Positions 2,094 through 63,299 of a stretch of DNA of 64,000 nucleotides are shown here, piece by piece. Source of the DNA: Sabellastarte sp. h YS-2021 (Eukaryota > Annelida > Polychaeta > Sabellida > Sabellidae). Below the pieces are notes generated by a model. It had not been told where the DNA came from, did no database searches, and was given only the letters and a program-made list of their open reading frames with translations. A program made the translations under genes and the position numbers. The stretch is taken from positions 2,294,001 to 2,358,000 of the forward strand of contig OZ024928.1 in NCBI GenBank assembly GCA_964017235.1. Reading direction: 5' to 3'. The first letter of the stretch is position 1, and every line of letters begins with the position of its first letter.

Positions 2094-2233
2094 TCACCAT
2101 CCCACATGATTCACTGTTTCCACTGGTGTTGGAGAGCATTTGGGAGGCATTACCGTACTTACTGGGGCCATTCCATTAGGGTCCGGTTCATCTTCTACCT
2201 TTCTCTTAGGTTTTCTACCCAGCAGGAAAAACA
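2094..2233 (-). CDS. Exon 21: end of the TM helix, cytoplasmic tail, stop codon
   Basis: The split codon G|TG gives V, followed by [11 protein letters not shown], an acidic patch [11 protein letters not shown], then S-T-V-M-P-P-K, T-P-V-E and C-terminal V-G-W before TGA. Acceptor ATTGTTCCAG. The same exon, with matching phase and motif order, ends the neighbouring gene at 62339-62481, which independently confirms that this is a real exon. Confidence 0.87.
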
Positions 2234-5200: not shown

Positions 5201-8200
5201 CTCTAACCGCTACACCACCGAGCCCCCTTCAGGCTTGGAAGTCGGTACATAGATGGTTTGAAAATAAACAAAGGTCAACAAAACATAATATCCTTGATAA
5301 AGGTAATGAGGGCAGAAAAACATAACTTCTTACCAAGGCAGCCAGTCCCTACTAATGTTGCAGCCACAGCAGCACCAACAATGTACCAAATCATGTCTGT
5401 GTTTGAAGTGTCACCTTCAGTATTTTCGTCATCATTTACTTGTGCAAGAAAATCTGAAATATACATTTACAAGATGAAAATATCACTACAGGATATCCAC
5501 TATTCTTCAAGTAGTGTACTGATTTCCTGTAAATGTACTATAGTTTGACATTTTCTCTGATACACTGCTATTTAAAAAGCCTCCTAAAGAAACACTGAGG
5601 ATTATTTCATTTCCATTCATTTGCTCACTTAAAACGGCTTCACAATCCTTATTAATATTCTAAACTTTTCTCCTGAAACATTTCTCAGGAATATTGTGGT
5701 TTATAAGTGTGGCACCTAATGCCTTTTCTTTGGTGACAGTGGTCATAATTTTGAAATCTTATACAAAAATCGTACTTGACACATTTAGGGGTTTTGGTTC
5801 CGGCTATATCAATATTGCAATGGCAAATCCCCCATCTCATTTATATTGTTTTTAGGGTGTCCAAATCCGATTTGAGACATCCAGTTTGTGAGAGTGATTT
5901 ATTGTTTTTACTTTGGGAGGGGAAAATTAGATGACAAGAAAATTGCAATGTATATTATTAGAAATTTGATGGCTGTGGACTAGAAATAGAATGACAAAAA
6001 ATCACACACTGGATGTCAGGTGTCGTTAGCCGCATACATGTGTACATAGACTTTGATGGACTTACAAATATATGTGTCTGCAATGCTGATATTTGACAGA
6101 CCTTGTAAAAAAGTCATATTAAAAGGTTCAAATTGATGCATACCTAGACCTAAATCTGTTTTATTAACATCAAATTTTTCCTTCTATTTCCTTATCAAAT
6201 GAACAATTTTTTCATTCTTTTTTTTCCTAGTTAAAAATACTTATTTGAAATCAAGGGAATAAATCAATTGAAAGAATATCATAATATCATATTTACATTT
6301 TAATAAAGTTAAAATCATTAGCTGAAAATGGTTAATGGTGAAACCGTTATTCTCATCAGACAAGAAGTAAGTAATTTGAGGTCATTTAAGATAATTTTGG
6401 TAAATTTCTAACTGACAATGGTTGGACTAGATCTAATGACAATACTACCAGCATCACAGTTGGTCCCCGTGTATTCAGCTGTACATGCACAGGTGTAGCT
6501 TTCAGCATTGTCTGTACACTGGCCGCCATTTTGACAAGGGGAGTCAGCACAGGTCACCACAGTCTGGTTACCAGCTTAAATACAAACAGGAGGAAAAGGC
6601 TCAAATGTATAGTAGTGACTTACTCAACAAAAAATTGAATACTTAAATTTTAATACGATGAAAAAAAAATGTCAAACAAGAATATTTTCAAAACAATAAA
6701 TCACTTAAAAGAAGTCCGTTTGCTATTTTCATATTTTAAATAAGTGATGGTCTTTTTTATATTACATTCTAAACTTTTTTACGCCTAATCCTGACTGTAT
6801 AACCTTTTGTAATAGGACTAGAGTAGCAGGAGTGATGTGTTTGCGTCTGTTTGTTTTTCTGCCTGTGCTTGCAATTACTCCAAAACCGATGTACAGACCT
6901 AGAGGAATTTTTTCATGTACAGGGGAACAGTGATTCGTGGAGGACAGCAATTTGCCATAATTGGGTATTTTTCCTAAAACCTATTAAATACTAAACCTAC
7001 AACCAAATATGACACAATTTAATAGTGAAAGACATAAAGACAACCCACCACTACTGTGTAATTACATACTTTAGACAGAAATAACTCAGAAATGATTATT
7101 TATCCAGTGCTATGCTTTTTCTCATCTTTTCTTTGAACACAACTATTCTTGTTAGATGTATGAAAGAACCATTATTAATTTTTTTATTGTAACCCATCAA
7201 TGTATTATTTTTTAAGGTTTGATATTGTAGAATCATGCATTTGTAAATGTATTCTTAAGATCACCAAGGAGAAAATTTTCAGTCTGACACAGCTGCACCC
7301 TCAGCTGTGTCAGACTGAAAATTTTCTCCTTGGTGATCTTAATTTTCATCTGGATCAACACGATACCTGGTCACTAAAATTTTATGATATTCTGGAGCCA
7401 TTTCGTTTGACACAATTTTTTTCTTTTTTTTATAATTTTTTTTATTCCAATAGACATACAGGTAAGTATTTTCCAGAAAATGTGTGAAATTTTTCCACAA
7501 CAAAAGCTAACAAGAGGTAAAATAAAGTCTCATGTCTCATCACCTAACAAATAAAGAATAAATTATTTGAAATAGTGATTCTACAATATCAAACATAAAA
7601 TAAATGATGCTATAACTGTAACAACATTTTCTAGTCACATTACATAGCATTTAAAGAATACATTTACAAATGCATGATTCTACAATATCAAACCTTAAAA
7701 ATCATACATTGATGGGTTACAATAAAAAAAATTAATAATGGTTCTTTCATACATCTAACAAGAATAGTTGTGTTCAAAGAAAAGATAAGATTGTCTTTGG
7801 ATATCTATGGGAAGTATCTTTGGATTATATACATTCTCATATGGTATGGTGTTAATTATGTCCTGTTATATGTTGTTAAAAATGCCTTACCATGTTTGCC
7901 ACCTTTTAGCATATATTTCCATTTTTGAAGTAATTTTGAACAGTATTTTTTGCTCCTCGTATCTATCTTTTATTATCTTCTGAAGCCAAAATATATCAAG
8001 TTTTTTTCCTTTTTTGAGCACATCTGAAAATGTAATATCTGGTTATTATAAGAATAAAGTTTATTGGCCAAAAATGTTCATCTTGTTTTTCATAGCATAA
8101 AACTTTTGTAATATTTGTCCATTCTGCATTGTAGGAAATTTTTGAAAGGAGACAAGTTTTGATATTATTTCACAGAATTATAACATTATTACAATGGAGA

Positions 8201-11200: not shown

Positions 11201-14200
11201 TGATACTATTTGATCACTCTCTTTTATATTTTTATTTTTCTATATTGATGTGGATCAAGTCTTACCTTTTGAACTCCCTCAGTCAGGTCATTTCCAAATT
11301 GAATGTAACTCACCACCTTAACTTTGATTCTAGCATGGAAGAACTGATTGAGTGTCTTGAGTTAGTACAGGAGAGGATGGATGGTGTTCAGCTGAAACTC
11401 AACCCCCAAAAACTGAATTTATCATCATAGGCCACAAATCTATTGGAAAGTGGCTTACACTTAATTTCCCTGCCCCACTACTCCAAAATGATATCTCTCC
11501 TTTGACAATCATATAACCAATGTTTGCCGGGCATGTTACTATCATCTTTGTGATTTGCGACAAATTTGTAAATTCCTTAGTGTTGACACTGCAATACTTG
11601 TGGCAAATGCTATGGTCCAGTGCCGCCTGGACTGCTGTAACTCTTTACTTTATGGGGTAAGCAAGACTAATATAGCTATACTACAGACAGTTCAGAATGC
11701 TCTGTGCCGCATCATCTTCATAATTGACAAAATGAGTCATGTTGCACCCTTTTTAAAAAAAAACTACATTGGCTTCCAATTCAACATTATATCCTCTTTA
11801 AGTATAACCTTCTGGTTTTCAAGGCGATCAATTTTTCCCAACCCCCATATCTATCAGCTTTAACTAGATCGAGCAGTCTCACTCATGGCAAAAATCTATA
11901 TGTCTTCTCAACCCGCCCTAAGAAGCACATAGGTAGGCATGGCTTTGTAGTAGCCATACCAGCTGAATGGAAGAGGCCGCCACAAACTGTCAGATCTCAG
12001 CAAATAATTCATGCTTTTAGAAACCAGCTTAAGACTCACATTTTTAGGCTGGCATACCCCTTTAGCTATACCCTGTTGGGTGCTTTTTTGGCTATTGATC
12101 CATGTCTGTCCCTGGACTATCCCTTCTTGGATTAAAGCGCATTACAGGATTTATATCAATTTTGCGCTCTGTAAATCCTATTATTATTATTATTATCTCT
12201 ACTACATTATTTTTCGGGGTACCAGTCTGTTTTGTATTTACTTAGAACAACCTCTTCAATTTAACAGAAAGTAACATGACATCATTTGTTGTTTGTTTAC
12301 ATTTAGCAAATCTCCAATAATTTTGAGCAAATTGCTGTCCCCATGAAAGTATAGAGCCTGAACGAAGGAAGAAGTGATTAAATTTTGATAAAGATAGTGA
12401 TCATTCTCTGGATAAAAAAATCTTGACTTGTCATCCTGGTGCCGTCTATCTCTTAATACAGCAAAGACAAAATACATGTTTCTTCAAATGGATTCAAATG
12501 GATCAACCTTATAGAGGGCATTGTGAGAAACGATATTACAGTTTCTGCATGGAATGGCTCCTCGAATTGACACACAGTCAATTAAAAAGAAAGTTTATTT
12601 AAGGCTTATTTAATGCTATTTTTGCTTATAGATTAAAATGTAGGTATATGCCAAACTATACAAGTTAATGGGCATATTTAGATTGATTGTCGCCTGAATA
12701 GCCATCAGCACAAATACAGTCTAAACTCTCAAATGACTGACATTCCCCTAAATAGGAGGCTCAGGGATGACCATTTTTCAATATCCCTGATGTTCTTTAG
12801 CCTTCCCCTGAGGAAATAATCCAATCACAAGGGACAGCGATTTTAAGTTGTCAGTCTAGCCACTCTGTATCTGCCTGTAGAATGACCACCTATCAATGTC
12901 ACTGAGCTTCTTTAGCCTGCCACTGGGGACAGGACCCAATAACAAAGGACTGTCATTTTAATTGGCCGTCTGTGGCACTATATATTAGTCTGCATCTGGG
13001 ATTGAATCCAGTTCTGACGTGTTCAAATGTGGATGTATTACCAATAGTATTTTTAAAATACAATTGACACAAAATAAAATATATAATTAATTTCAAACAA
13101 AATATTATTATTATCACTTAAAAAGCAACTTAAAGTAATAAAGTTATTATAAGGTTTCTTGCTTTTGTATGAAGCCTTTTCAATCTGTGTTTATATCATA
13201 GCATTTTTTATTACAAATAAATCCATACTGATTGATATGAAACTATGACAATTAGATTTAAATAGTCATTGTCACAAATGCTTTTACTTGTAATATATTG
13301 AAGTAGTTTATTTTTTATTATATTCTATGCTACATCTGCTAAGTCGAGTGGTAGATTTACACTGAACATACTTGTCTGGCAATTGTCGCCTGAATATCCA
13401 TCAGGACAAGAACATGTATAGGAGTTTCCACTCACAGCACATGTACCATCATTCTGACATGGGTTGTTGTCACACGCAGTTGCACCAGGACTTTCTGAAA
13501 TTGAACATATATATGATATCAGGTTTATGCACAGCATAGTGATTTATTACCATACCTCTAAGTCATACCTCTTTGGAAACGCATATCCACCCTAAATTTC
13601 CAATCTCCTCCTCCTTCCTCCGTGGTGCTGACCCCTGCAATGTCTCTGGTATATGAATATTGAACAATGTTTTTGTGTGATGCGCCTTAGAATCTGTCTT
13701 TTGACAGAGATTAAGCGCTATAAAAGTGCTATTAGAATTAGAATTACCACTGGACTAGAATCACTATTACCTATCCAGAGTGCACGAACACAATCTAATT
13801 AAATTTTCTGAATGGTTGACAAATAGCCAAGCCTATGGTTGTTTTGCCTGCCACTGGATACAGGACCAATTGCCAGAGGACTGCAAGTTTTAGCTGGTTT
13901 TTCCAACTACTATGTTTCTGTCTTTAATTGGAATAGAGCCCAAGTCTTTCATGATTTAATTTGAGTGTGTCAACCACTAGGCCACAGTGGCAGACTTTTT
14001 TCCAGAATTTTTTGGAATGTTATGAGCTTCTCATTGCAGTGGTTTGAAATTTAAACCCATGATTAATCATAGTACACATGTGGTTTCTATCTGATGCCCT
14101 CTGTTTCATACCTCTGTTTACACCCTAACAGTTGTAAAAATGTTGCTTGGTGGAGACAATTCAAGAAAGTATTTCCGAAGACAGCAGTTGTATAATTTGT

Positions 14201-31360: not shown

Positions 31361-31396
<36 letters not shown>

Positions 31397-34300
31397 AAAA
31401 AACGAAATATTGAATAACTTAAAATATGTAAACTAGTGATCTTAACTTGTGCTAACTGCACTCCGTGTTGGTATTTCAGAATCATTGCCCTGTAAAAGAA
31501 ATAATTGTTGATATTTTAGGTAATCGCCTACTGAATCCCATGAAGTATACTAACTTACTTTGGATAAACCATCTATACTTTTAATCATACATGTTTTAAC
31601 TGTCTTTGGGAACATGATGATAGACACTACATATTCTCCTGAAAAAGAACAATAAATAAATAACAAATTAGAGAATGCATATATATATTATTGATTTTGA
31701 TTATGATAACTCTTACGAACATGCTTGCAGTTACTTAAAATCAAATGATAATATATAGGAACATTAAAAATGATATTTAACAGTTTCTGTAGTCTGAAAT
31801 CCTCACCTTCTATTGCCACGTTACAGTTGTCTGTTATGCAGCAGTAGTAACATATTGCCCCTGCAGTGTTGTACCCATTTTCACAAGCCTGGACCTGTGA
31901 TATGTTTAAAATACTTGTGAATGATTGTTTTCAACATGTTATATGTGTAAAGAAATACATTAATCCAAATAATTTCAGGTTTTAGACCTTGTGGTAAAAT
32001 ACACCTTAAGGTGTAAACATCTTTCTTAAATGGAAAAATTGGTGGTTACTCGCTCATTGGCTGATAGCTTAGAGAGTAATTTTTTGAGAATGCATTGATC
32101 TTCTATATTCTCCCTCCACCTTACTTAACTTCCGTGCTTGCTGTAATGTTGTAAACAATCTATGCATGACATCTATGTATGATTTATATGACAAAGGTGA
32201 ATAGGTCCCTGGTGGCTCAGTTATTTGACAGCCACCTTAAATGCATAGGCATATTGTAGTTAGGCCTGCGTGCAGATTTAACAACATTGAGTCCTGGCTC
32301 TTTGTTAGCCATTTTTTTTATCTACGTCCCTTTCAAATCTGCTCAAACACAGACAAAACTTTAAGCTAGAGGTTTTAGTTTTTTTAGAATATTGCCATAT
32401 ACAAAAAAATGCAATGATGATATGCCTTCAAAGAAGAGTCCAGTGACTACTGGGAAAACAGTCAGATGGGTCTAGGACTAGGTAATGCCCCTTTCACACT
32501 ACACGTGGTACATCCCGCGCTTAGAAGTTTTACTCAGCGGCAGAACTACACTACAGGCGGACGGCCACTGATTGGACATGGTTTTTTAACTGTCAATAAC
32601 AGTAGAATGACAGTATTGCAAATGTTGGTCACTGAGAAGCAACCGCCATTAACCTTAACTTACCTTCAGTGGCCATCAGACAAACACTTGTAAAAGAACC
32701 AATACCTCCACTCATGTCGCCTTGTTACACCAAAGAACGACCAAGTTACAACCTTACATGCACAGAGGACCACACCTTTAGTTACCATGGTAATAAATTA
32801 CCCGCATGCTTAGGGTTCAAGAATCAGAGGCAGAAAGTTTAAACTTTTCAAAATTTCTGTGGGATGTGTAAGGATTGGGATGGTGGGCCACTAACTCGAA
32901 TGTTTGCAAACAGACAGGGACGTTTCACCAAACGTGGGTTACCACGAGTGATACCGCCTTAGTGTGAAAGGGGTATTAGGGCAGCAGACTCACTCAGAAA
33001 AGATAATGTGCAAGAGCTCCTATTTAACAGAGCCTCGGGAAGCTCACCAAGTTATTTTACATTAGGGTACTGATAATGCCTTTGCCTTTTTACATAAGAT
33101 GCAATGTGATAATAAGGATACTTTAGATTCTGTAGAACAATGCTCCTCCATTAACTCTTCTCCTGTTGCTTCATGAATGGGACCCTCCAGTCCTGTGAGA
33201 CTGAGATCGTCATTTTACTGGTATCGGCTACATTCCCACTATGTTTCCAGTCAGATAGAGTTACTTTTTAGAACTACGTTGATGACAATTTTTTTCATCT
33301 AGGAATGCCTCTCACTGTCACCCCAATAATATGATGAAAGGAAACATGCCTGCTTTGGATGCCATGAGAAAGTTAACAGTTGTTGCTTCTTTAGTCTTTA
33401 GATTACTTGCGAGTTATAACCAACAAACAAGAACAGTTCATCTCTAGAGTAAGCCAGCTCCCAAAAGTCAGGTCATTTTAACATTCATGATACATACACT
33501 ATGATACATTTCTAAGGTGGCCAGGTCCTCTGTGGCCTAGTGGTTGGCAGCTTTGGCATCTAATCACAGGCTGTCCCCTCTGTGTGGGTTCACCTCCCAC
33601 AAGTGTCAATGCTCAGGACCTGTCCCAATATGACCCTGACTGGGATGTAAAACCCCAACTTTGAATAAGGTGGGCCAACAAAGAGGTGTGTCAACACACG
33701 CAGATTTATGTATGATGTAGTATCATCACCTCAGTATTTAGCAGGACAGTAAAATAAGGCTGTTCAGATATATCTTGCTCTCATGTGCAATTGATTTTTC
33801 AGTTCATTTATAGAATATGTGATGCCTCGAGTTTACTGTGGCCAGTTGTCCAAGTCACACACAACTCTTCCATACACACAGTAGGATACAGATGGTTTAG
33901 TGATATTTTGTTCAAATATTTTGGTAAATGGTCTTGCTGAAGGAATAATTACAGTAATACTAACTCATGGCTACTTACCTCACTTTGACAAACAGACTTG
34001 GCCTTACATTTCTTTGTGATTCTCAGATTTCCATTTTCATTTCTCACTTCGGTTTGACATCCTCCCTTTATGCATTAACATATACACAACAATATCACCC
34101 TTATTCATAAACTTACTACAATAGTACAATATACTTATACATAAACATAAAACAATATAATAATATGTTTATACATAAATATAGCACAATATCATAACAC
34201 ACTTATGCATAAACATAACACAATAAAATAACCATATATACATAAACACAATTCAATAACACACTTATACACAAACTAAACAGAATTCAATAACACACTT

Positions 34301-37300
34301 ATGCATAAACATAAAACAATATGATACATTAACACATATAATTTTATTTATTTATTTGGGTTTTAACATCGCTTTCAACACATTGCATAGGTCATATTAT
34401 GACAGGTACTTTTATGGGGAGAGGAAACCAGTACATACAGTTAGTCAAGTTTCTGTGCTGTAAACTACCGACCAACGGCAAGCAACTACCAGCTTTCACA
34501 CTCGAGGTCGGGCTGGGATTCGAATTCCAATCTCAGAGGTGGGAGGAGAGAGTGTTACCACTCTGCCACTGTGGCTCCCAACACAGTTTAAGTACACATA
34601 ATACAATTCAATAACACACTTTAAATAACATAATATAATATGACAAAATAAAATGGCATACTTATACATAACACAATATAAAATAATGTCACATTTATAT
34701 ATAACCATAATACAATATGATTCAATACAATACATAATATAGAGTATATATAGGGGTTATCACAATAACGTGCATGTCAGAATATCGTGTATCGAGATTC
34801 AACAAACTAATTGTGCGAAATGTCAATCTAAGTTACAGTGATTTAACAACTAAAACATAAATTACGATGTCGTTCTCCTTCACTTTTTAAGTGGAATGAA
34901 TGCCTAATAAATTAATCAGCTACAAATTTAAGAGTATCTTGCAAAAGAGTCAAAGCATAACAACAGTTACAAGGTGAGTTGTGTGGTCAAAGTACTCTAA
35001 GTCATAACACAGTTACAGAACAAAAAGATTGAACACAACTTGTCTGGATATAAGGCTAACACTCAAATTTTAATTACCATTTACTTTCAACAGCTGATTC
35101 TCAGATTAGCTCAATGAACACCCCTTTTAGGACCCTAAAAGTTATCACATATTATAGTAATAAAAGTTACATTTCACAGGAAATCCTTTTCCTTGGTGTG
35201 GCGTGTTAAACCATGGTGAAAAACTATTGTTTGAAAACCCAGTTTTTGAAAATATAGACATCACATGTGCTTGTATATACATGAAATATGATGTGTGTTT
35301 TATGTTTCCACTAAAACAAAGTAAAAAAATGGGTTTACCTAATCTATCCTCCACCAAATAATAGAGTGTTGAAGTATTAGTTTGGATTGATAGTTTATAT
35401 ACATTTTTGCCAAAGCAATTGCCTTTAAAATGTTTACCTTGTTACTGGCTACACATTAATGAACATGTTGGACTGACTTGCCATGTTCCTGCCACATACT
35501 GTGGTTTTGTTGCTTTTGGTACAGTCAGAACAATAATAACAAAATTCCACTCTCTGTAACATACTATTGTCAACCTTTTCTGTGTTTAGGCTCAGGCCTG
35601 ATCTGAGGTTTGTAGTTACCAGTGTTTCATTGGCTTACAGTACAAACCCTTGACCCAATCGTAGGCACTGTTTTCATTCATTCAATCAACTACTCAATAA
35701 TATTAGATTCTACCAGAACAATTTTCTAAAGGTAGCATTGAACCCACAACCAATCAAATCAATCAATAGCATCTGACAAAAAATACTTACAGTATCCCCT
35801 GAATTACAAGTGGCCAGGTAGCCATTTGCTCTGCAATCCAAGAAGTTTGCCTCATTTGTGCAGGTCCAGCACTTACTGGCATCTGAAGAGAATAATTTGG
35901 AAAAAGTCAAACATTAATAGGTCGTTTGGCATTATGATTAATAATAAACTGTCGCAATTGAAGAAAACTTATAACACAAGACTTATAACACAAAGTCACA
36001 ATCATAAATGGTTCACTGGAAAGGTAATTCCAGACTTATAAGATCGCTGGGATCCATTTTAACAGATTTTTAAGATTCCTTATGCCAGAGATGAGAGGAC
36101 ATCTAGGGTTGTATAAAAGTAAACATAAGTTATACCACTCCAAATGCTGGTTGTTACAAATCATTGTCAAATCCGACCCAACAAAAAATGCCAAAGTAAA
36201 ATCAGTCCTTGGGCAAAATCCCTCAGTCAAATCGGCCCTAATAATAAATCTAGTTTATTTCTTTTGTATATGACAAACCAAACAAAATTAATGCTACAAT
36301 AAATGCTACGATAAAAAAACAAAAGGCTTTTACCAGTTGCTTGGTGAAAACAATGTCAAAATAACTGCTACAATAAAATGGGAAGGAGAACTAAATATAC
36401 AAATTGATCCTCTTATTTGGAAAAAAAGTATTTAAAATTTGCTTTAAAACTATACAAGATAATTATTACATCTGGTTCCAGTACAGAATCATTCATAGAA
36501 TTTTAGGTACTAGGAAATTGCTGCATACTATAGGGAAAGTACAATCTTCACAATGCATTTTTTGCAAAAATCACCCAGAAACACTGATTCATTTATTCTG
36601 TAATTGCAATATTTCCAAACAATTATGGAATGATGTAGAAAAATGGATCGCACATGCAACAAGTATTCCAATTAAGCTTTCACCAGTAGAAATCCTTTTT
36701 GGTTATCTGAATCCTGATAATTTCAACCCTATTAATACAATAATTCTCGTAACAAAAGCTTATATTTTTTCAAAATCATGAAAGGCAATACCTTTAGATA
36801 TCTCTGAACTGAAAAGTAACATATCATATTTTTTTTTTTTTTTATTTATTTATTTATTTTTTTTAATTTAATTTTTTTTTTCTGTAAATAACGAAATATG
36901 TTACTCTGTATTTTGTTTCTCTCTCTGTTCGCAAAAAAAAATATTCAATTTGATTGTTTGATCACCTAACGATGTACTGGGTCACCCACTATGCCTGGGT
37001 GTGTGTACCCCCAGTGTGTTTCTCTCTTTTTGTTAGTGGCATAACTATATCAAATTGGATAATAAAAAAAAAAAAAAAATTAATGCTACAAAATAGCTTT
37101 ACAAGTTATGTATCAGTCATAAACGTTATCTAACTTGATTATATATGATTACCAATTTTTATAAACACCTACTAAATACCTGATTTTGATTAGTGCTTAT
37201 TTGAATATGTTAAACAAGGATAATAAGGGCCATATTCCCATCAATAAAGAATGCTTAAATAAAGGAAAAAGAGGGTCTAATTGCCCTTTTAATAATTCTG

Positions 37301-43300: not shown

Positions 43301-45927
43301 AAGGTTTCTTATTATAGTTCCTCAGTTCATAATTCTAAAGTTCATTTCAACCACCATTGCTCATATGATGCTCCAAAACTTTGGAATGATTTGCCACTGG
43401 AAATTCAAATTGCTTAAAATTACTCTTTCATGTTTCAAATGGTGACTAAAAAGCCACGTGCTTCAGAAGTCTCTCCCTTCCTAGTTCTTGACTACCGAAG
43501 ACCGATGGTCTCCTTGGCTAGGACCCATAACATGTTTCATGACTTTTGATTTATATCTCAACTTTTGGTTGGGGTGCCTACAGAAATTAAGCACTTGGAT
43601 ACCTGATACCTGATTAATGATGTGGGTCTTGTCTTGGAACATATTGGATCAGCCTGGCACTTAAAGACTTTAAAGAGTATTCATATTGAGTGTATTGAAC
43701 TAGATTTATTTTGGTGTTCACAGGATTTTAGTGCTGCACATGTACACATGTTTTTCATATTACAGAATAACATATATCTGTTGAAATGCAATTCTAAACT
43801 CTCTCTGTAAGCATTCAAGCCTTACATATTAAGTTACCAAAGTGGGTACATTTTTATAGCTTTTTTTAACATTTTACAGCACATTTTCATAGGCCTCATG
43901 ATTATAAACAAAATTAAATTAAATCTAACCATTAATACTGTGGTTTCACATAGAAATACATTCAATTATACATAAAACAAGCAAAGGAATTTATGAATTT
44001 ATGTTTGGCTTATCAATTTTACACAAGGAAACAGTAACCTTTTGAAAGCACCATTGAAATGTAAAACTGCAAAGCTTGCATCATTCATCCCTATGGGTTA
44101 GGGTTTGACAGTTTTTTGTATATCTTGTCAGACGATTTTGTATATCTTAATTTTGGATAATTTGGGTTGCACGAAGATTTACCACCAAGCCAGGCAGTAT
44201 TTGTTTTCTATCTTTGAAGCACTGAAACTAGTTTTACAAGCAAACTGATTTTAAACCTACATATTTTATACCAAAGCATAGACAAATCGGCCCTTGGCCA
44301 AATCGGCCCCTGTCAAATCGGCCCCAAAAATAAAATACCCAAGTCAAGTCGGCCCCCAGGAAAATATACCTTAGTCAAATCAGCCCCCTGGAAATTACTG
44401 TCCTCTCAAAGAGAATATGTTAAACATATGGCAAAAATCACAATCTAAGAAAAATATGATCTAATTTATACTGTTATAGCACTTAATCCCTTTGTTAGCC
44501 TGGCCTTCCAGGCTGTCTGAATCATGATGCAAACAGGAAAATATTTTTTCCATAATGCATTCTGTATTTAGAGACCTTTCTAGTCTGTTCTCCTCAGCAA
44601 GCTAGGCTAAGTAAGTGTATGAGAACATTATGAAAAGTACTTATAATGCAGTCAAACAGTTGTGTCTATATTATATGTACAAACGCCTGTGGCAAGGCTA
44701 TCCCTTTGTAACCAATTGCATTTTAATAAATCTAACATAATTAAGTGAGTAAAGGACAGAAGATAAAGGGTATTGATTACAGCATCCAAAAATGTTATAT
44801 ATAAGTTAATTTCACTTTTGCTAAATATCACTGAAGAAGCTATCACCTTTGACATAATGTGATTATCTAATTACACTTATAATTATTCTAACACAAACCA
44901 GTGTCTAAATCACATAAGTTAAAAAAACATGATGAAACATCCAAACATCTTTGATATATGTTAATCACACTTTGTAATTATAACTTTAGTGGTTGTCACC
45001 CTTATGACACAAATATAACATGATCATAAGGAATTATCTGCAATTATTTGTTATTTATAACCTAATACATGTTCACCTGACCTACTGTGCATACTAAATA
45101 TCTGTCAGTTTTAGAGTCTGTCATATGATGGAGATTAAGTGCTGTAAAAGTACTCTTATTGCATTACATGTTATTGATTTTTAGTCCAGGACCGAGTTTT
45201 TAGAGGGCCAATTTGCCGAGGTCCGATTTGGCAAAGGGCCCAATTGTCCAGTTCCTTTTTATGCGGATATCCACCAGTAAACCAATACAAAACACTTTAT
45301 AGGAGAAATCATTAAAATAAAACATTTGGAGAACAAGATATCAACATCAGGCCAGAAATTAAAAGAGGTTCTGGTAATTTTAACTGAAGTTCTATTGTCT
45401 ATGCTGACTGTATCTGCCAATCACATGAAAGTTGGAGAATTGTCTTGCATAGGGCTGTAACATTGTCAGTGCTTATAACAGGAATGCTACAATTACATAT
45501 ACGAAAAATATATGTCATGAATGAAGATGACAATATATTTCAGTTCATAGTCAAGTTTGAGTGTATGATTATAATCACCGATTGCTTCACAAAATATCTT
45601 CCACAGTGCATATGAGAGAAACCATCTGATGAATTAGTTACAATTCCATGAATTAAATTTACTAAATAACAATAATTGAAAGAATCTTCTACCATACCCC
45701 ACCATAATTTGGCGTAAGCCTTAAATTCGCACATAAATTAAATAAAAGGATTAAACTCTGACAAATCAAGATGAATATATAAGGTGGGTCTGTGTTTACA
45801 AACCTTAAACAAAAACACGCAGAATATTATTATATTAAATACAAAATGTAATGAAAAATAAGCATTCAATACCTCCGTAACATTGGCTTAATATCCCCAA
45901 TAAAATAACCACCACAAAACAGGCCAT
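2094..45927 (-). CDS. Spliced gene: LU-CBM14-LU-CBM14-EGF(x10)-TM cell-surface protein, 813 aa
   Basis: Coding exons in transcript order: 45873-45927, 35791-35882, 33979-34065, 31807-31894, 30760-30960, 29910-30004, 29351-29452, 28911-29001, 27360-27566, 27004-27120, 25982-26092, 22404-22514, 21095-21205, 19436-19546, 18961-19077, 16554-16676, 15692-15805, 13372-13494, 6449-6574, 5334-5453, 2094-2233. All introns are GT-AG, phases match at every junction, and the sum is 2442 nt (813 codons plus stop). Domains: signal peptide 1-18, LU1 19-107, CBM14-1 108-174, LU2 175-270, CBM14-2 271-339, ten EGF domains 340-727, acidic linker about 728-747, transmembrane helix about 748-772, cytoplasmic tail 773-813. 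From family knowledge, CBM14 binds chitin, LU domains are disulfide-rich three-finger folds, and EGF arrays mediate extracellular contacts. A surface chitin-binding or adhesion role (cuticle, shell, gut lining or immunity) is inference. I recognise no named gene with this order. Extra exons in the 10-kb first intron or skipped EGF exons cannot be excluded. Confidence 0.88.
2234..5019 (-). other. Intron 20, left part
   Basis: No domain-coding exon, recognisable transposon or strong tandem repeat is visible. Short open frames here show no coding signal. Confidence 0.5.
5020..5227 (-). mobile_element. tRNA-derived SINE (family A), diverged, in intron 20
   Basis: On the minus strand the head reads TGGTGTAGCGGTTAGA (A-box-like), followed by GGTTCAAATTT (B-box-like), then a body that on the plus strand shares the words gaggaaaccag and gcatactg. 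The 3' part is diverged. Confidence 0.65.
5334..5453 (-). CDS. Exon 20: acidic linker and transmembrane helix
   Basis: Encodes D-F-L-A-Q-V, then a short acidic, threonine/serine-rich stretch ([10 protein letters not shown]), then [20 protein letters not shown]. Acceptor TATATTTCAG, donor GTAAGAAG; phase 1-1. Joined to exon 21 the hydrophobic run continues V-F-F-L-L and stops at R-K-P-K-R-K, a classic stop-transfer signal. Confidence 0.88.
5454..6448 (-). other. Intron 19
   Basis: AT-rich, with no repeat family recognised and no extra EGF motif on the minus strand. Confidence 0.5.
6449..6574 (-). CDS. Exon 19: EGF domain 10 (membrane-proximal)
   Basis: [18 protein letters not shown], then [12 protein letters not shown] and E-Y-T-G-T-N-C-D-A. 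Six cysteines, intact C-x-D-x4-Y-x-C consensus, and a possible N-glycosylation site N-Q-T. Acceptor GTATTTAAG (weak pyrimidine tract), donor GTAGTATT; phase 1-1. It is the most diverged EGF of the array. Confidence 0.86.
7120..7790. repeat. Nested inverted repeats (foldback element) in intron 18
   Basis: Outer arms 7120-7256 and 7654-7790 are near-perfect reverse complements of 137 bp. Inside sits a second, perfect inverted repeat with 41-bp arms at 7255-7295 and 7302-7342 and a 6-base loop. No transposase is encoded. It may be a non-autonomous foldback transposon. Confidence 0.85.
7860..9990 (-). mobile_element. L1/Tx1-type LINE, 5'-truncated, decayed
   Basis: Minus-strand frames give a reverse transcriptase: [12 protein letters not shown], then [25 protein letters not shown] (usually R-Q-G-D-P), and the catalytic F-A-D-D-T-T. 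The 8923-9867 frame (314 aa) covers palm and thumb. 8323-8802 continues the C-terminal region. Near 8220-8330 a zinc-knuckle-like [11 protein letters not shown] and C-R-L-C appear. A frameshift lies in an A run near 9948. No 5' ORF or endonuclease is seen. Inactive; the ends are estimates. Confidence 0.8.
9985..12200 (+). mobile_element. CR1/L2-type LINE, decayed, with endonuclease end, RT pieces and 3' end
   Basis: Plus-strand frames, broken by stops, give [12 protein letters not shown] (C-terminal endonuclease motif), [11 protein letters not shown] (RT motif A), [13 protein letters not shown], and [17 protein letters not shown] near the 3' end. It ends in a TTATTATT-type tail. The left edge of the 3-kb tandem duplication falls inside it at 11587. 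Confidence 0.78.
12686..12713 (-). pseudogene. Relic of a deleted EGF exon (copy A counterpart of EGF domain 8)
   Basis: These bases match 15702-15729 inside the EGF8 exon. Compared with copy B, a deletion of about 16 bp removed the donor and the end of the coding part. A second deletion of about 169 bp, bounded in copy B by the 6-mer gcacaa at both ends, removed the rest and the acceptor. No splice site remains, so it cannot be used. Flanking sequence on both sides aligns well with copy B. Confidence 0.85.
12690..13030 (-). mobile_element. SINE family C, copy A
   Basis: Contains gaatgaccacctatcaatg, tagcctgccactgggga, and a minus-strand B-box-like sequence at the right end (tgggattgaatccag on plus). 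Copy B is at 15890-16205 and a third copy, with a full tRNA-like head, is at 42330-42600. Confidence 0.6.
13372..13494 (-). CDS. Exon 18: EGF domain 9 (copy A of the 3-kb duplication)
   Basis: Near-identical twin of EGF7: [13 protein letters not shown], ending G-Y-S-G-D-N-C-Q-T. Acceptor CAATTTCAG, donor GTATGTTC; phase 1-1. The low divergence, with the base changes split between silent and one conservative replacement, fits a recent duplication with both exons still used. Confidence 0.88.
13546..13749 (+). mobile_element. CR1/L2-type LINE 3' end inserted in copy A only, with 7-bp target duplication
   Basis: 13553-13742 matches the 3' end of the LINE at 54900-55090 (catatccaccctaa, gcgctataaaagtgctatta). 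It is flanked by attacca at 13546-13552 and 13743-13749. Copy B at this place reads straight through (ttattaccagtggac), so the insertion came after the tandem duplication. Confidence 0.82.
13835..13995 (-). mobile_element. SINE family C, short diverged copy (copy A)
   Basis: Shares cctgccactgga-tacaggacca and the minus-strand head (ccactaggccacagtggcag on plus). The duplicate is at 16840-16995 in copy B. Confidence 0.55.
14576..15190 (+). mobile_element. CR1/L2-type LINE 3' fragment (copy made by the tandem duplication)
   Basis: Duplicate of 11587-12200 with the same [15 protein letters not shown] frame and a TATTATTAG-type tail. It moved here as part of the 3-kb duplication rather than by its own insertion. 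Confidence 0.8.
15692..15805 (-). CDS. Exon 17: EGF domain 8 (copy B, the copy that survived)
   Basis: A 38-codon phase 1-1 exon: [14 protein letters not shown], then [23 protein letters not shown]. Acceptor CAATTCCAG, donor GTATATCA. The matching exon in copy A is reduced to a relic at 12686-12713, so this domain is now single-copy within the duplication. Confidence 0.88.
15890..16205 (-). mobile_element. SINE family C, copy B
   Basis: Duplicate of 12690-13030; the right end carries the B-box-like gggattgaatccag. In copy B a complete EGF8 exon lies beside it. Confidence 0.6.
16554..16676 (-). CDS. Exon 16: EGF domain 7 (copy B of the 3-kb duplication)
   Basis: [17 protein letters not shown], then [23 protein letters not shown]. 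It differs from EGF9 by one amino acid (V for A before the first cysteine) and only two bases in 123. It lacks the Asp of the hydroxylation consensus. Acceptor TATTTTAG, donor GTATGTTC; phase 1-1. Confidence 0.88.
16840..16995 (-). mobile_element. SINE family C, short diverged copy (copy B)
   Basis: Counterpart of 13835-13995, with an added short repeat of gcctgccacttttgcctgcc near its left end. Confidence 0.5.
17708..17885. mobile_element. Small MITE-like inverted repeat with CTTAGTC-type ends
   Basis: The left end tttacaaagactaaaccca and the right end tgggcttagtccttttgtgaaa are imperfect reverse complements, resembling the ends of the element at 129-689. Confidence 0.5.
17886..18960 (-). 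other. Intron 15, remaining part
   Basis: AT-rich intron sequence with no recognised element or exon. Confidence 0.45.
18961..19077 (-). CDS. Exon 15: EGF domain 6
   Basis: [15 protein letters not shown], then [12 protein letters not shown] and G-Y-T-G-N-N-C-Q-T. It combines the T-D-E-C start of EGF2-5 with the N-C-Q-T end of EGF7-9, so it bridges the two subgroups. Acceptor GGTTTTCCAG, donor GTACATGG; phase 1-1. Confidence 0.88.
19436..19546 (-). CDS. Exon 14: EGF domain 5
   Basis: [15 protein letters not shown], then [12 protein letters not shown] and G-F-K-G-T-D-C-G. It is a slightly more diverged member of the EGF2-5 subgroup. Acceptor TTCTTCACAG, donor GTGAGACT; phase 1-1. Confidence 0.88.
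19670..19935 (+). mobile_element. SINE family C copy with internal 38-bp duplication
   Basis: Carries the family words aaaatgaccacttaaaatgg and gaatgtcagtcactggag in plus orientation. The 38 bases at 19701-19738 are repeated exactly at 19739-19776. Confidence 0.6.
20380..20645 (+). mobile_element. CR1/L2-type LINE 3' end
   Basis: The plus frame gives [17 protein letters not shown], then S-F-R-K-K-L, the conserved C-terminal tail of CR1/L2 ORF2. It is followed by a gataagtgctataa-like tail. Confidence 0.7.
20646..21094 (-). other. Intron 13, remaining part
   Basis: No further exon or repeat recognised. Confidence 0.4.
21095..21205 (-). CDS. Exon 13: EGF domain 4
   Basis: [15 protein letters not shown], then [12 protein letters not shown] and G-Y-K-G-T-D-C-G. 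Six cysteines and an intact Asp-hydroxylation consensus. Acceptor TAATTACAG, donor GTATGGAT; phase 1-1. Confidence 0.88.
21825..21965 (-). mobile_element. tRNA-derived SINE (family B), diverged
   Basis: Minus strand: GGTTAGCAAGTTTG head, CACCTCTGTGTG, TTCGACTCCCACAAG (B-box region), then GACCCTGGCTGTTGAA, matching the copies at 33519 and 56315. Confidence 0.6.
22404..22514 (-). CDS. Exon 12: EGF domain 3
   Basis: [15 protein letters not shown], then [12 protein letters not shown] and G-Y-K-G-T-D-C-G. Same length and phases as EGF2, EGF4 and EGF5. Acceptor TTATGTGTAG, donor GTATGAAT. Similarity to the EGF4 copy continues into the flanking intron on the acceptor side. Confidence 0.88.
22515..24927 (-). 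other. Intron 11, left part
   Basis: AT-rich, about 2.4 kb, no exon found. A stretch around 23188-23475 holds repeated ttcactaa/ttcattaa-cctcctttа-like words and may be a decayed MITE. I see no clear termini. Confidence 0.4.
24928..25650. mobile_element. GC-rich inverted-repeat element in intron 11
   Basis: Ends are imperfect inverted repeats (gtgttccaccacacgactaa at left; ggattaag complement and tggtggaacaag at right). The interior is far more GC-rich than its surroundings, with many copies of ttagtcccag and ggcctcctg in both orientations and a 16-bp perfect palindrome atcaaacatgtttgat. No coding sequence. Confidence 0.6.
25680..25865. repeat. Palindrome-rich TTGGCC repeat
   Basis: Contains two copies of gcatggtcagcagattttg and several partly palindromic words (cattggcccaacattgg, acattgggccagcgttggcc). 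Non-coding. Confidence 0.5.
25982..26092 (-). CDS. Exon 11: EGF domain 2
   Basis: A 37-codon phase 1-1 exon: [15 protein letters not shown], then [12 protein letters not shown] and G-Y-K-G-T-D-C-G. It has a calcium-binding-type N-terminus (T-D-E-C) and a full C-x-D-x4-Y-x-C consensus. Acceptor ATCATAG, donor GTATGATT. It is nearly identical to EGF3-5 at the protein level. Confidence 0.88.
26545..26885. mobile_element. Diverged copy of the MITE at 32483
   Basis: Shares cacactacaggc near the left end and accaaa-gacgaccaagt inside, with a weak inverted acactacag at the other end. Short open frames here are not coding. Confidence 0.45.
27004..27120 (-). CDS. Exon 10: EGF domain 1
   Basis: Encodes [13 protein letters not shown], then [16 protein letters not shown]. 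All six EGF cysteines are present in standard spacing. The Asp/Asn at the hydroxylation position (C-x-[DN]-x4-[FY]-x-C) is replaced by Ala (C-E-A-D). Acceptor ATTTTAG, donor GTGAGT; phase 1-1. Confidence 0.87.
27360..27566 (-). CDS. Exon 9: CBM14 chitin-binding domain 2
   Basis: A 69-codon phase 1-1 exon with eight cysteines in the same order as exon 5: [33 protein letters not shown] and S-T-C-P-A-G-N. It keeps the C-x-x-G...LxWD core but lacks the C-D-W-P of domain 1 (A-C-V-A instead), so its sugar-binding face may differ. Acceptor CATGTTTCAG, donor GTGAGTG. Confidence 0.87.
27567..28569 (-). other. Intron 8, right part of the CBM14-2/LU2 interval
   Basis: No exon or known repeat. Open frames of about 65-105 codons lack domain or splice support. 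Confidence 0.4.
28570..28680. mobile_element. Very short foldback MITE
   Basis: attcaacaaaggtcttag at left and ggacctttggtgaatat at right are inverted repeats around a TATATATA core. Confidence 0.45.
28911..29001 (-). CDS. Exon 8: LU domain 2, C-terminal part
   Basis: Encodes D-S-R-C-P-P-S-N to [10 protein letters not shown], ending with the LU closing signature CC-x(4)-CN. Acceptor TGCTTTTCAG, strong donor GTAAGTAT; phase 0 in, 1 out, as in exon 4. Confidence 0.88.
29351..29452 (-). CDS. Exon 7: LU domain 2, middle part
   Basis: A 34-codon phase 0-0 exon starting G-G-C-Q-T-R-V and containing [12 protein letters not shown], so it parallels exon 3 with five extra residues (A-T-N-S and one internal). 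Acceptor CCAAG, donor GTAAGTCT. The exon start falls in a run of six G, so the acceptor is set by phase and by the match to exon 3. Confidence 0.85.
29910..30004 (-). CDS. Exon 6: LU domain 2, first part
   Basis: Starts P-E-P-F-K-C-W-T-C and ends C-N-S-G-D-T, like exon 2. Acceptor TTTGATTTCAG, donor GTAAATAC; phase 1 in, 0 out. Protein and phase match exon 2 closely, evidence of an exon-level duplication. Confidence 0.88.
30005..30759 (-). other. Intron 5
   Basis: No exon or repeat family recognised. Confidence 0.45.
30760..30960 (-). CDS. Exon 5: CBM14 (peritrophin-A type) chitin-binding domain 1
   Basis: A 67-codon phase 1-1 exon holding a complete domain: [21 protein letters not shown], then [19 protein letters not shown]. 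The C-x-x-G-L-x-W-[ND] core followed by C-D-W-P matches CBM14 well, including the aromatic positions that contact chitin in known members. It has eight cysteines, two more than the minimal six. Acceptor TTTATTTCAG, donor GTAAGTGG. Confidence 0.88.
31363..31403. repeat. Homopolymer: 32 C then A run
   Basis: 32 consecutive C residues followed by 9 A in intron 4. The count may be unreliable because of sequencing. Confidence 0.9.
31559..31638 (-). other. Possible cryptic or alternative exon (80 nt)
   Basis: Strong acceptor (GTTCTTTTTCAG) and strong donor (GTAAGTTA) bound 80 bases open in the frame that would follow exon 4. Including it would shift the frame of exon 5, so it would act as a poison exon. 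It encodes no recognised domain. Chance is quite possible. Confidence 0.2.
31807..31894 (-). CDS. Exon 4: LU domain 1, C-terminal part
   Basis: Encodes V-Q-A-C-E-N-G through [10 protein letters not shown]. The CC-x(4)-CN ending is the family signature that closes LU domains. Phase 0 in, phase 1 out; donor GTGAGG. The domain carries 12 cysteines, two more than the usual ten, in the same spacing pattern as LU2. Confidence 0.88.
32483..32977. mobile_element. MITE-like element, 495 bp, 20-bp terminal inverted repeats
   Basis: The left end taatgcccctttcacacta and right end tagtgtgaaaggggtatta are near-perfect reverse complements. No transposase frame. Lies in intron 3. Confidence 0.75.
32978..33518 (-). 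other. Intron 3, middle part
   Basis: Nothing recognised. Confidence 0.4.
33519..33675 (+). mobile_element. tRNA-derived SINE (family B)
   Basis: A-box-like tggcctagtggttggc and B-box-like gggttcacctccc lie at tRNA-like spacing, followed by the body words cctgtcccaatatgaccctg and aaaaccccaactttga. Confidence 0.75.
33979..34065 (-). CDS. Exon 3: LU domain 1, middle part
   Basis: A phase 0-0 exon of 29 codons reading G-G-C-Q-T-E-V, then lysine-rich residues with three more cysteines, ending S-V-C-Q-S-E. The acceptor is ATAAAG and the donor GTAAGTAG. The pyrimidine tract before the acceptor is weak, but the counterpart exon 7 starts at the same residue and also has a weak tract, which supports the call. 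Confidence 0.85.
34075..34745. repeat. AT-rich minisatellite, split by a SINE
   Basis: Irregular tandem units of about 35-40 bp with the words cacacttatacataaacata and acaatataataa run through 34075-34343 and resume at 34584-34745. Confidence 0.7.
34344..34580 (-). mobile_element. tRNA-derived SINE (family A) inside the minisatellite
   Basis: Minus-strand head GGGAGCCACAGTGGCAGAGTGG, B-box region GAATTCGAATCCCAGC, body with gaccaacggcaagcaact (plus), and tail tttatttatttggg (plus). Confidence 0.78.
34746..35790 (-). other. Intron 2, right part
   Basis: No exon or recognised repeat. Confidence 0.4.
35791..35882 (-). CDS. Exon 2: LU domain 1, first part
   Basis: Encodes the start of a Ly6/uPAR domain: K-C-W-T-C at the front, then [15 protein letters not shown] at the end. 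Acceptor CTCTTCAG, donor GTAAGTAT. It enters in phase 1 and leaves in phase 0, exactly as exon 6, its LU2 counterpart. The closing motif C-N-S-G-D-T is identical in both copies. Confidence 0.88.
36284..37091 (+). mobile_element. L1/Tx1-type LINE 3' end, 5'-truncated, with about 16-bp target duplication
   Basis: Plus frames give [14 protein letters not shown], then [16 protein letters not shown], the zinc-knuckle end of ORF2. A 3' UTR and a poly-A run end near 37079. aaaattaatgctacaa occurs at 36284-36299 and again at about 37076-37091. Lies in intron 1. Confidence 0.82.
37092..37984 (-). other. Intron 1 segment
   Basis: No recognised features. Confidence 0.4.
37985..38175 (+). mobile_element. 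tRNA-derived SINE (family A)
   Basis: Head ccaatgtggcacagtagtaa, B-box region agtttgaatcccag, body ggtcggcagtttatagtgca. Confidence 0.75.
38188..38425 (+). mobile_element. tRNA-derived SINE (family A), well preserved
   Basis: A-box-like tggcagagtggtaaca and B-box-like gggttcggttcccgg match Pol III box spacing. Body ggtcggcagtttacagtaca; tail (aaat)n. Best-preserved copy in the window. Confidence 0.82.
38601..38785 (-). mobile_element. tRNA-derived SINE (family A), truncated
   Basis: Plus-strand words gtcatatcacgactggtag, cagaggaaaccagtacata and, at the head end, ttaccactgccactgtagcc. Confidence 0.75.
39246..39494 (-). mobile_element. tRNA-derived SINE (family A) abutting a poly-C run
   Basis: Full-length tail-to-head on the minus strand; head ccactgcgccaccattgccc on plus. 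The head end runs into 17 C, probably expansion of the terminal GGGG of the SINE. Confidence 0.78.
39495..41718 (-). other. Intron 1 segment
   Basis: About 2.2 kb of AT-rich sequence. An 88-codon open frame at 40490-40756 (+) has no domain support. Confidence 0.4.
41829..42087 (-). mobile_element. tRNA-derived SINE (family A) with target duplication
   Basis: SINE at about 41841-42075 flanked by cacgctcccgtt (41829-41840) and catgctcccgtt (about 42076-42087). Head ccactgcgccaccgtggcc on plus. Confidence 0.8.
42330..42600 (-). mobile_element. SINE family C with intact tRNA-like head
   Basis: Minus strand: TGGCCCAGCGGATAACACAC (A-box) and GGATTCAAACCCAGG (B-box), then the family C body. Shows that family C is also tRNA-derived. 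Confidence 0.72.
42618..42835 (-). mobile_element. tRNA-derived SINE (family A), diverged
   Basis: Plus words tttaacaggttataatgggt, gaaaccagtacatac, aaggtcaggtccatggttc; the head is degraded. Confidence 0.6.
43310..43620 (+). mobile_element. CR1/L2-type LINE 3' end
   Basis: Plus frame [14 protein letters not shown], the conserved C-terminal block of CR1/L2 ORF2, followed by attaagcacttgg-type 3' UTR and a short repeated tail (gatacctgatacctgatt). Confidence 0.72.
44283..44400. repeat. Clustered caaatcggccc words
   Basis: At least five close copies of [ca]aaatc[ag]gcccc with variable spacers. Similar clusters at 36170-36240, 41720-41830 and 45185-45245. Confidence 0.6.
45110..45180 (+). mobile_element. 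LINE (CR1/L2-type) tail fragment
   Basis: agagtctgtcatatgatgga and gattaagtgctgtaaaagta match the 3' tails at 13553-13742 and 55040-55090. Confidence 0.55.
45873..45927 (-). CDS. Exon 1: start codon and signal peptide
   Basis: The ATG lies in a good context (AAAACATGG, A at -3 and G at +4). It encodes M-A-C-F, a run of hydrophobic residues (VVVILLGIL), then SQCYG, a typical cleavable signal peptide of 18 residues. The donor follows as TACGGAG|GTATTG, phase 1. The split codon joins exon 2 as GAT (Asp), giving mature protein starting near D-A-S-K-C-W-T-C. No other in-frame ATG lies nearer to the LU exons with such a leader. Confidence 0.85.
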
Positions 45928-48999: not shown

Positions 49000-49232
49000 T
49001 AGATTAATTTATTTCATTTGGGGTCTGAAATTGCTTTCAACACTGTACAGGTCATATCACGACAGGTAGTTGGAAGGGCAGAGGAAACCAGTACATACAG
49101 TTGGTCAAGGTTCTGTACTGTAAACTGCCGACCAACAGCAAGCAACTACCAGCTTTCCCAGTTAAGGTCAGGAAGGGATTCGAACCATGATATCAGAGGT
49201 ATGAGGCAAGTAGTGCGCCACAGTGGTCCTCT
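49000..49232 (-). mobile_element. tRNA-derived SINE (family A)
   Basis: Head agtgcgccacagtggtcc (plus), B-box region gggattcgaaccatg, body ctgccgaccaacagcaagca. Followed at 49330-49400 by a LINE-like tail ending in (tgat)n. Confidence 0.75.
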
Positions 49233-62338: not shown

Positions 62339-62481
62339 TCACCAGCTGCTCTTATTCATTTCCACTGGTGTCAGTGTGGATTTAGGACGCATTTGTGTAC
62401 TAGCTGGAGTCATTCCATCAGGATCTAGTTCCTCTTGCACCTTTTTGTCACGTTTCCTGACCATCAAGTAAGAAACTGCAA
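62339..62481 (-). CDS. Last coding exon of a second, related gene (partial)
   Basis: Read on the minus strand: acceptor TTTTTTTCTAG, then V-A-V-S-Y-L-M-V (end of a membrane helix), basic R-K-R-D-K-K, and V-Q-E-E-L-D-P-D-G-M-T-P-A-S-T-Q-M-R-P-K, T-P-V-E-M-N, ending S-S-W before TGA. Entry phase 1 and exon length (143 nt versus 140) match exon 21 of the large gene, and about 23 of 39 aligned tail residues agree. The rest of this gene lies beyond the right edge: its transmembrane exon is not found in 62482-64000, and the intron in the first gene at this point is 3.1 kb. So it is a tandem paralogue upstream in the same orientation. Confidence 0.85.
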
Positions 62482-63255: not shown

Positions 63256-63299
63256 GGGTAAGAGTATTATGTTCTCTTTTCAAAGGAGTCATCACACCA

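Follow-up and report, generated by a model that had tools for sequence, protein, structure and literature searches.

Two neighbouring genes on the same strand, gene A and gene B, encode predicted membrane proteins in which three-finger LU (Ly6/uPAR) and chitin-binding CBM14 domains alternate twice in a head that sits on a stalk of EGF domains. We consider it possible, with a probability of roughly 45%, that these proteins anchor epithelial cells to a chitinous matrix. The window analysed is a stretch of 64,000 bases (C2:2294001-2358000) from a genome of 1,785,957,881 bases in 647 contigs. Its flanks were examined over 60 kb on the left and 140 kb on the right, the first 4 kb of the right flank overlapping the window.

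Gene A was rebuilt from the genomic sequence as 21 exons on the minus strand, running from the ATG at 45927 to the stop at 2094 and coding for 813 amino acids. The first-pass annotation had proposed 21 exons joining in frame from a signal peptide to a stop codon with a product of this length, and we reproduced that exactly. The introns are GT/AG in 20 of 20 cases and their phases join. The order is signal peptide, LU, CBM14, LU, CBM14, ten EGF domains, one transmembrane (TM) segment at approximately residues 748-773 preceded by a short acidic linker, and a short tail. The predicted product is a type I membrane protein consisting of a stalk and a head. Intron phases are regular: 1-0/0-0/0-1 for the three exons of both LU copies, and 1-1 for the two CBM14 and all ten EGF exons. 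The features are as follows.

45873..45927, minus strand: exon 1, start codon and signal peptide, phase 1 donor (homologous gene B exon, 5' flank alignable)
35791..35882, minus strand: exon 2, LU domain 1, first third (rebuilt model, Pfam and structure matches)
33979..34065, minus strand: exon 3, LU domain 1, middle, weak acceptor
31807..31894, minus strand: exon 4, LU domain 1, end, CC..CN motif
30760..30960, minus strand: exon 5, CBM14 domain 1, 8 cysteines (36.5 bits against a cut-off of 22.1)
29910..30004, minus strand: exon 6, LU domain 2, first third
29351..29452, minus strand: exon 7, LU domain 2, middle
28911..29001, minus strand: exon 8, LU domain 2, end, weak donor
27360..27566, minus strand: exon 9, CBM14 domain 2, divergent (16.4 bits, below the cut-off of 22.1)
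27004..27120, minus strand: exon 10, EGF 1
25982..26092, minus strand: exon 11, EGF 2
22404..22514, minus strand: exon 12, EGF 3, weak acceptor
21095..21205, minus strand: exon 13, EGF 4
19436..19546, minus strand: exon 14, EGF 5
18961..19077, minus strand: exon 15, EGF 6
16554..16676, minus strand: exon 16, EGF 7
15692..15805, minus strand: exon 17, EGF 8
13372..13494, minus strand: exon 18, EGF 9, recent copy of exon 16 (121/123 bases identical)
12686..12713, minus strand: remnant of a second copy of exon 17, 28 bases, mostly deleted, outside the model
11571..17599, no strand: tandem segmental duplication of ~3 kb that added one EGF exon
6449..6574, minus strand: exon 19, EGF 10, weak donor
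5334..5453, minus strand: exon 20, acidic linker and transmembrane segment
2094..2233, minus strand: exon 21, end of the TM segment, basic stretch, Pro/Thr-rich cytoplasmic tail, stop
62339..62481, minus strand: last exon of gene B, tail ending in ...DPDGMTPASTQMRPKSTLTPVEMNKSSW and the stop (remaining gene B right of the window, to C2:2415049)

A six-frame scan of the window with gene A exon profiles placed all exons on the minus strand in this order and found no further LU or CBM14 exon, the remaining rows having E > 0.1; the sole extra match was a scrap of EGF sequence at 12760-12668 (E 3e-4). With a donor of at least 3 bits and a hydropathy of at least 2.3 as thresholds, exon 1 is the sole phase-1 signal-peptide-like exon on the minus strand within 35883-60000 (the other strand has 0), and candidates of other phases, or elsewhere in the window, do occur. 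Several splice sites are weak, namely the acceptors of exon 3 (-4.8 bits, leave-one-out) and exon 12 (0.1) and the donors of exons 8 and 19 (1.7). A strong donor-like site lies within exon 21 at 2162 (8.8 bits). A tail extending beyond it is not favoured: seven acceptors above the 95th percentile are present in 1-2094, continuation in phase 0 from each of them reaches a stop within 56 codons, and gene B has no GT at this position and ends at the matching stop. The cysteine-bearing open reading frame at 35452-35634 was rejected as a module, being absent from the LU, CBM14 and EGF profile matches.

Neither Rfam families nor tRNA genes were detected in the window. Retroelement fragments are present at 8923-9960 (minus strand, RVT_1, 76.7 bits), 53952-54548 (plus strand, RVT_1, 20.9 bits, below the cut-off) and 36395-36781 (plus strand, zf-RVT, 36.5 bits). 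Intron 18 contains an inverted repeat (7120-7256 and 7654-7790; 97.1% identity over 138 aligned positions). A dispersed repeat of ~230 bp, SINE-like by its size, occurs in both orientations with pairs 74-90% identical. Of six copies in the window (34341-34585, 38183-38421, 38601-38784, 39246-39483, 41839-42073 and 49004-49210), intron 1 contains four and intron 2 a single one, the sixth precedes gene A on its upstream side, and two more occur in introns of gene B.

Comparison of the window with itself revealed a relative of gene A exon 21 at 62481-62339 on the same strand. This is the end of gene B, which is located directly upstream of gene A and has 24 exons and 927 amino acids in the order LU, CBM14, LU, CBM14, 13 EGF domains (against ten in gene A), TM and tail. 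All its introns are GT/AG with splice sites picked by a scoring script that favours the expected phases, and the only stop is at the end. Exon 1 of gene B was chosen among 10 signal-peptide-like rows upstream: 121049-120995 (window-extended coordinates) was taken because it matches gene A exon 1 and the 5' flanks align. No third family match at E < 0.1 was found within C2:2234001-2494000. The order LU-CBM14-LU-CBM14-EGF(x10)-TM, as read in the first-pass annotation, was therefore not only borne out for gene A but is repeated, with 13 EGF domains, in a second gene.

Gene B bears directly on the case named earlier as the one that would overturn the model, in which the LU/CBM14 exons and the EGF exons belong to separate genes and gene A is a computational join of two neighbours. 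A signal-peptide-like ATG at 22551 does read into exon 12 (EGF 3), an LU-EGF locus on C11 shows another order, and the gene A model is predicted from genomic sequence. However, the head-stalk intron (intron 9, between the exons of CBM14-2 and EGF 1) measures 239 bp and holds no signal-peptide-like exon, and gene B has the same head-stalk junction. Because gene B repeats the order with a head identical at 282 of 317 residues, the LU/CBM14 and EGF halves form one gene, and two separate genes are very unlikely indeed. Short of transcripts, gene B settles the predicted gene A model including both ends.

Two further observations concern this region. At 22551-22404 (minus strand) the in-frame ATG with its signal-peptide-like stretch, if used as a start, would yield a head-less EGF form. 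An element of ~540 bp, 80% identical between 180-690 and 62714-63257, lies close to the last exon of each gene, on opposite sides of the two exons.

The one-to-one pairing of the LU domains between the genes (87% identity for A_LU1/B_LU1, 91% for A_LU2/B_LU2) suggests that doubling of the LU-CBM14 unit preceded the gene duplication. Over the whole head dN is 0.057, dS 0.388 and dN/dS 0.15; these values and those below follow the Nei-Gojobori method and are rough given the short exons. Within the head dN/dS is 0.09 for LU1, 0.15 for CBM1, 0.10 for LU2 and 0.45 for CBM2; further along it is 0.15 for the first EGF, 0.68 for the last EGF, 0.48 for the TM segment and 0.45 for the tail, which is identical at 22 of 44 residues. 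Judged by these sequences, the head is kept between the copies and the second CBM14 domain less so. Exon-wise dS ranges from 0.115 (last EGF) and 0.165 (CBM14-2) up to 0.68-0.76 (LU1 and tail), a spread that gene conversion could give but that may be noise, as the exons are short.

These rates are relevant to the main rival function, that of a pattern-recognition receptor. Here the head, on haemocytes or gut cells, would recognise fungal, algal or parasite chitin and the tail would signal or drive uptake, like vertebrate FIBCD1 or the secreted VCBPs of the sea squirt. The tandem duplicate, the dispersed and reshuffled relatives (see below) and the changing EGF number resemble immune families, and the available text on FIBCD1 (PMC9994688) and VCBP (PMC7947342) describes chitin binding that serves immunity. 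Nonetheless, the head has a low dN/dS and shows no signs of diversification, which fits a steady function better than an arms race. Moreover, the tail matches just two places in the genome, and the TM-tail part matches no Pfam family. We regard this receptor as a possible but rather doubtful alternative. The partly conserved tail is compatible with signalling and hints at more than passive anchoring.

Two looser relatives elsewhere in the genome carry the same modules in reshuffled order. The two tail matches are genes A and B themselves. For the head at least 66 matches at E up to 10 were obtained (these counts are lower bounds, as only the best candidates were scored). Genes A and B account for sixteen of them, with eight head exons each. 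A cluster at C20:33899191-33919561 contributes 10 and an LU at C11:72605520-72607368 another 3, and of the remaining 37 most align with the query's CBM14 parts. The C20 exons, putatively one gene, have the order LU-CBM14-LU-LU-EGFx8 in the stretch examined, which begins at 33920000. No TM or tail profile match occurs there in 33870001-33890000, and the only TM-like exon candidates in that interval and in the gene are run-ons from a single EGF exon at 33893871-33893683 that are probably intron. The C11 exons, again putatively one gene, have the order LU-EGFx9 (the first EGF being weak), followed by a CBM14 at 72620621 that reaches 33.6 bits with Pfam and was missed by our own CBM14 profile; no CBM14 lies between the LU and the EGFs in the stretch examined. 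As predicted from these exons, the exact LU-CBM14-LU-CBM14-EGF order is common to two genes and LU, CBM14 and EGF exons co-occur at four loci. No LU exon was found beside the first eight CBM14 loci (L001-L008, ~3 kb each), and a scan of viral contigs gave 2 pattern matches, both unconfirmed, and thus no orthologue.

Some additional loci were observed along the way. At C20:33886094-33885969 (minus strand) an LU-like start (FQCWKCEDVTSLEECEQTGCWETC) lies just downstream of the C20 exons and is perhaps the next member of the cluster. Two CBM14-like exons 1.7 kb apart at C20:36771899-36773765 (minus strand) are similar to CBM14-2 (49%) and CBM14-1 (43%), and no LU row is among the matches listed near them. 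Among the 88 CBM14 matches listed, 23 lie at C1:173871744-173948915, mostly ~3.28 kb apart, and 10 at C4:92344086-92355179, mostly ~1.19 kb apart; both stretches are large tandem CBM14 arrays.

The LU pattern comprises 10-12 cysteines arranged as CxxC...CC..xCN in ~80 amino acids. Each LU domain of gene A has 12 cysteines as counted by eye and follows this arrangement, and 11 cysteine columns are invariant over eight LU domains of four loci. Pfam scores stay below the cut-offs, though the matches are nearly full length (TOLIP 16.8 against 21.2, UPAR_LY6_2 15.7 against 31.5); among the four LU domains of genes A and B each of these families matches two. Unrelated models match about equally well (Herpes_UL4 0.012, CueP 0.033). 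With shuffled LU sequences an LU family was matched in none of 10 cases and any family in 1 of 10. A genome search with PF00087 returned 8 rows, none of them in genes A or B.

Results are clearer with solved structures. All four matches of a profile built from four LU domains are LYPD6 (twice), LYPD6B and LYPD1 (E 0.0016-0.085), and the same four structures are found with eight domains (E 0.0035-0.0061). Smaller inputs are weaker: a two-domain profile matches LYPD1 at E 1.7, LU1 alone gives LYPD1 first (E 0.17) followed by two unrelated entries and SLURP1, and LU2 alone has no solved-structure match. The LU label of the first-pass annotation is hence upheld by the profiles, which match only LYPD6-type solved structures, but not by the Pfam cut-offs.

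For CBM14 the two domains differ. CBM14-1 reaches 36.5 bits against PF01607 (cut-off 22.1) over positions 1-53 of 53, whereas CBM14-2 remains at 16.4 bits over positions 1-52 of 53. The latter has the same phases, the same eight cysteines and 34% identity to CBM14-1. In a genome-wide Pfam search CBM14-1 of both genes exceeds the cut-off (35.7 and 34.4 bits), and with E up to 1 allowed, both CBM14 domains of each gene match CBM_14. Of the CBM14 labels proposed earlier, the first is thus confirmed at the Pfam cut-off and the second is not. Structure matches of CBM14-1 are weak: 4z4a, a CBM14 protein of known structure (E 0.0014), squid chitin-binding beak protein 3 (7bwe, E 0.006) and tachycitin (E 0.46). 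With the two-domain profile 4z4a is matched at E 1.1e-4, with the four-domain profile at 0.0085. The CBM14 profiles also match 8in3, a polyphenol-binding protein, and CBM14-like domains may bind ligands other than chitin.

A Pfam search on the whole 813 amino acids gave nine EGF-like families and missed CBM14 and LU, which are matched only if each domain is submitted by itself. NCBIfam gave nothing useful, and AlphaFold2 on the single CBM14 exons reached mean pLDDT values of 48.6 and 40.4.

The EGF identity of the stalk is firm (Pfam, 222.9 bits, 10 stretches in gene A), and its length differs between the genes. EGF 1, 6 and 10 of gene A match EGF 1, 9 and 13 of gene B with 34, 36 and 35 identical residues. 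Between the first two of these anchors gene A has four EGFs and gene B seven, and between the last two both have three. Gene A carries a tandem duplication of ~3 kb (14561-17599 against 11571-14577; pieces 89.3, 95.4 and 79.6% identical), in which exons 16 and 18 are identical except at 2 of 123 bases and, of the copied exon 17, only 28 bases at 12686-12713 have escaped deletion. The near-identity of exons 16 and 18 together with this scrap of exon 17 implies that local duplication and loss alter the number of EGFs. The gene pair and the remnant exon form a clear small case of this process. The match at 12760-12668 was considered as an 11th EGF and rejected, as it is the deleted copy of exon 17. 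With a length of ~3 nm per EGF, the head would be held roughly 30-40 nm off the membrane.

Among solved structures the stalk is most similar to Delta-like protein 1 (E 2.1e-73), which raises the question whether the proteins are Notch-ligand-like or Wnt-modulating. The Delta-like stalk, TM segment and tail would then be combined with LU domains whose targets are receptors, and the role of the CBM14 domains would merely be to restrict the protein to the matrix. The grouping of the LU domains with LYPD6/LYPD1 fits this reading, as does the presence in gene A of the O-fucose consensus in 7/10 EGFs and the O-GlcNAc consensus in 4/10; the Asx hydroxylation consensus is found in 6/10. On the other hand, both the O-glucose consensus and the strict calcium-binding N-terminal consensus are found in 0/10, similarity between EGF arrays is unspecific, and LYPD6 itself is a small, single-LU protein. 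In addition, the Pfam scan of the 813 amino acids, although it also missed CBM14 and LU, shows no DSL or MNNL domain, and LU, CBM14 and EGF modules fill exons 2-19. We therefore consider a Notch- or Wnt-related role unlikely.

The preferred reading remains that of a cell-matrix anchor. The role suggested in the first-pass annotation, a membrane-tethered chitin-binding receptor or matrix linker, is likewise an inference. CBM14-1, and perhaps CBM14-2, would hold on to extracellular chitin or a comparable polymer of N-acetylglucosamine, while the LYPD6-like LU domains would engage another protein or stabilise the head. How far the head reaches would depend on the EGF stalk. In this way the protein could tie epithelial cells to an assumed chitinous matrix, be it a shell framework, gut lining, cuticle or egg coat. 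A tandem of two LU-CBM14 units might provide avidity and a variable stalk might tune the distance. As far as the available text of PMC6368272 reports, CBM14 is the one domain represented among the shell matrix proteins of each of 12 molluscs.

In favour of the anchor we count CBM14-1 above the cut-off, the LU matches to LYPD6/6B/1, the existence of gene B, the head dN/dS of 0.15 and the TM segment. Against it we count CBM14-2, below the cut-off and with a dN/dS of 0.45, the CBM14 and LU domains missed by whole-protein Pfam, the unrelated models that rival LU, the failure of PF00087 to match genes A and B, the other ligands that CBM14-like domains may have, and the partly conserved tail (22/44).

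Two other functions were weighed. The proteins might be shed as structural components of matrix or mucus, with LU and CBM14 domains cross-linking and the TM segment needed for delivery alone. Chitin-binding and EGF proteins are described for mollusc shell matrices in the available text of PMC5379566, PMC4094399 and PMC6368272, and the short acidic linker before the TM segment looks open to cleavage. However, the TM segment and tail are kept in both copies (tail 22/44 identical, dN/dS 0.45), and we consider shedding improbable. It is likewise quite unlikely that the genes represent an undescribed chitin-receptor family in which LU and CBM14 act as a composite sensor, the Pro/Thr-rich tail relays and the EGF number (10 against 13) tunes the reach. 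If this were true, cells would gauge their chitin matrix or sense it mechanically.

An animal that uses chitin as a building material has to connect its cells to a non-living polymer, or inform them about it, and to our knowledge little is known of the membrane-bound chitin-binding proteins of invertebrates. The tandem pair, with its conserved head and variable stalk, offers a concrete and testable candidate for such a link. Among the open-access papers listed by our searches we found neither the combination of LU, CBM14 and EGF nor the tandem pair or its reshuffled relatives, in agreement with the earlier remark that no described family has this order. Unnamed automatic annotation of such proteins may well exist in protein databases.

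Comparison with known systems shows partial likeness in each case. Delta-like Notch ligands, the best solved match of the stalk, likewise consist of a head, an EGF stalk, a TM segment and a short tail, but they have DSL/MNNL, for which none is reported in gene A (Pfam scan of the 813 amino acids, which also missed CBM14). LYPD6, LYPD6B and LYPD1 are small, GPI-anchored proteins with a single LU. Their similarity (6ib6, 6gbi, 6zso, 6zss) covers the full length of the domain, with 12 cysteines as in LYPD1 by eye, whereas gene A has two LUs in an EGF-stalked TM protein. An LU type best known as free-standing and small is here built into a large adhesion-type receptor. The usual CBM14 domain has six cysteines. 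Compared to CBM14/peritrophin-A proteins such as squid beak chitin-binding protein 3 and tachycitin, CBM14-1 matches in Pfam and weakly in structure, but the domains have eight cysteines, are membrane-tethered and are paired with LU.

The mollusc matrix proteins Pif/BMSP and EGF-ZP also carry chitin-binding or EGF modules (PMC5379566, PMC8700984), Pif/BMSP combining VWA with chitin-binding and EGF-ZP combining EGF with ZP, and the available text of these sources describes no LU there. The Pfam scan of the 813 amino acids, which also missed CBM14, found no VWA, ZP or Ig match in gene A, and no unassigned stretch is large enough for one. VCBP of sea squirt and amphioxus (PMC7947342) and vertebrate FIBCD1 (PMC9994688) use a chitin-binding module for recognition, like the proposed head. 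However, VCBP is a secreted protein that has two Ig V domains, and FIBCD1 has type II topology and a fibrinogen-type domain; the available text on both describes no LU or EGF arrays. Every module of genes A and B is known, and we rate their combination, a kind of EGF-stalked mosaic receptor, as the new part.
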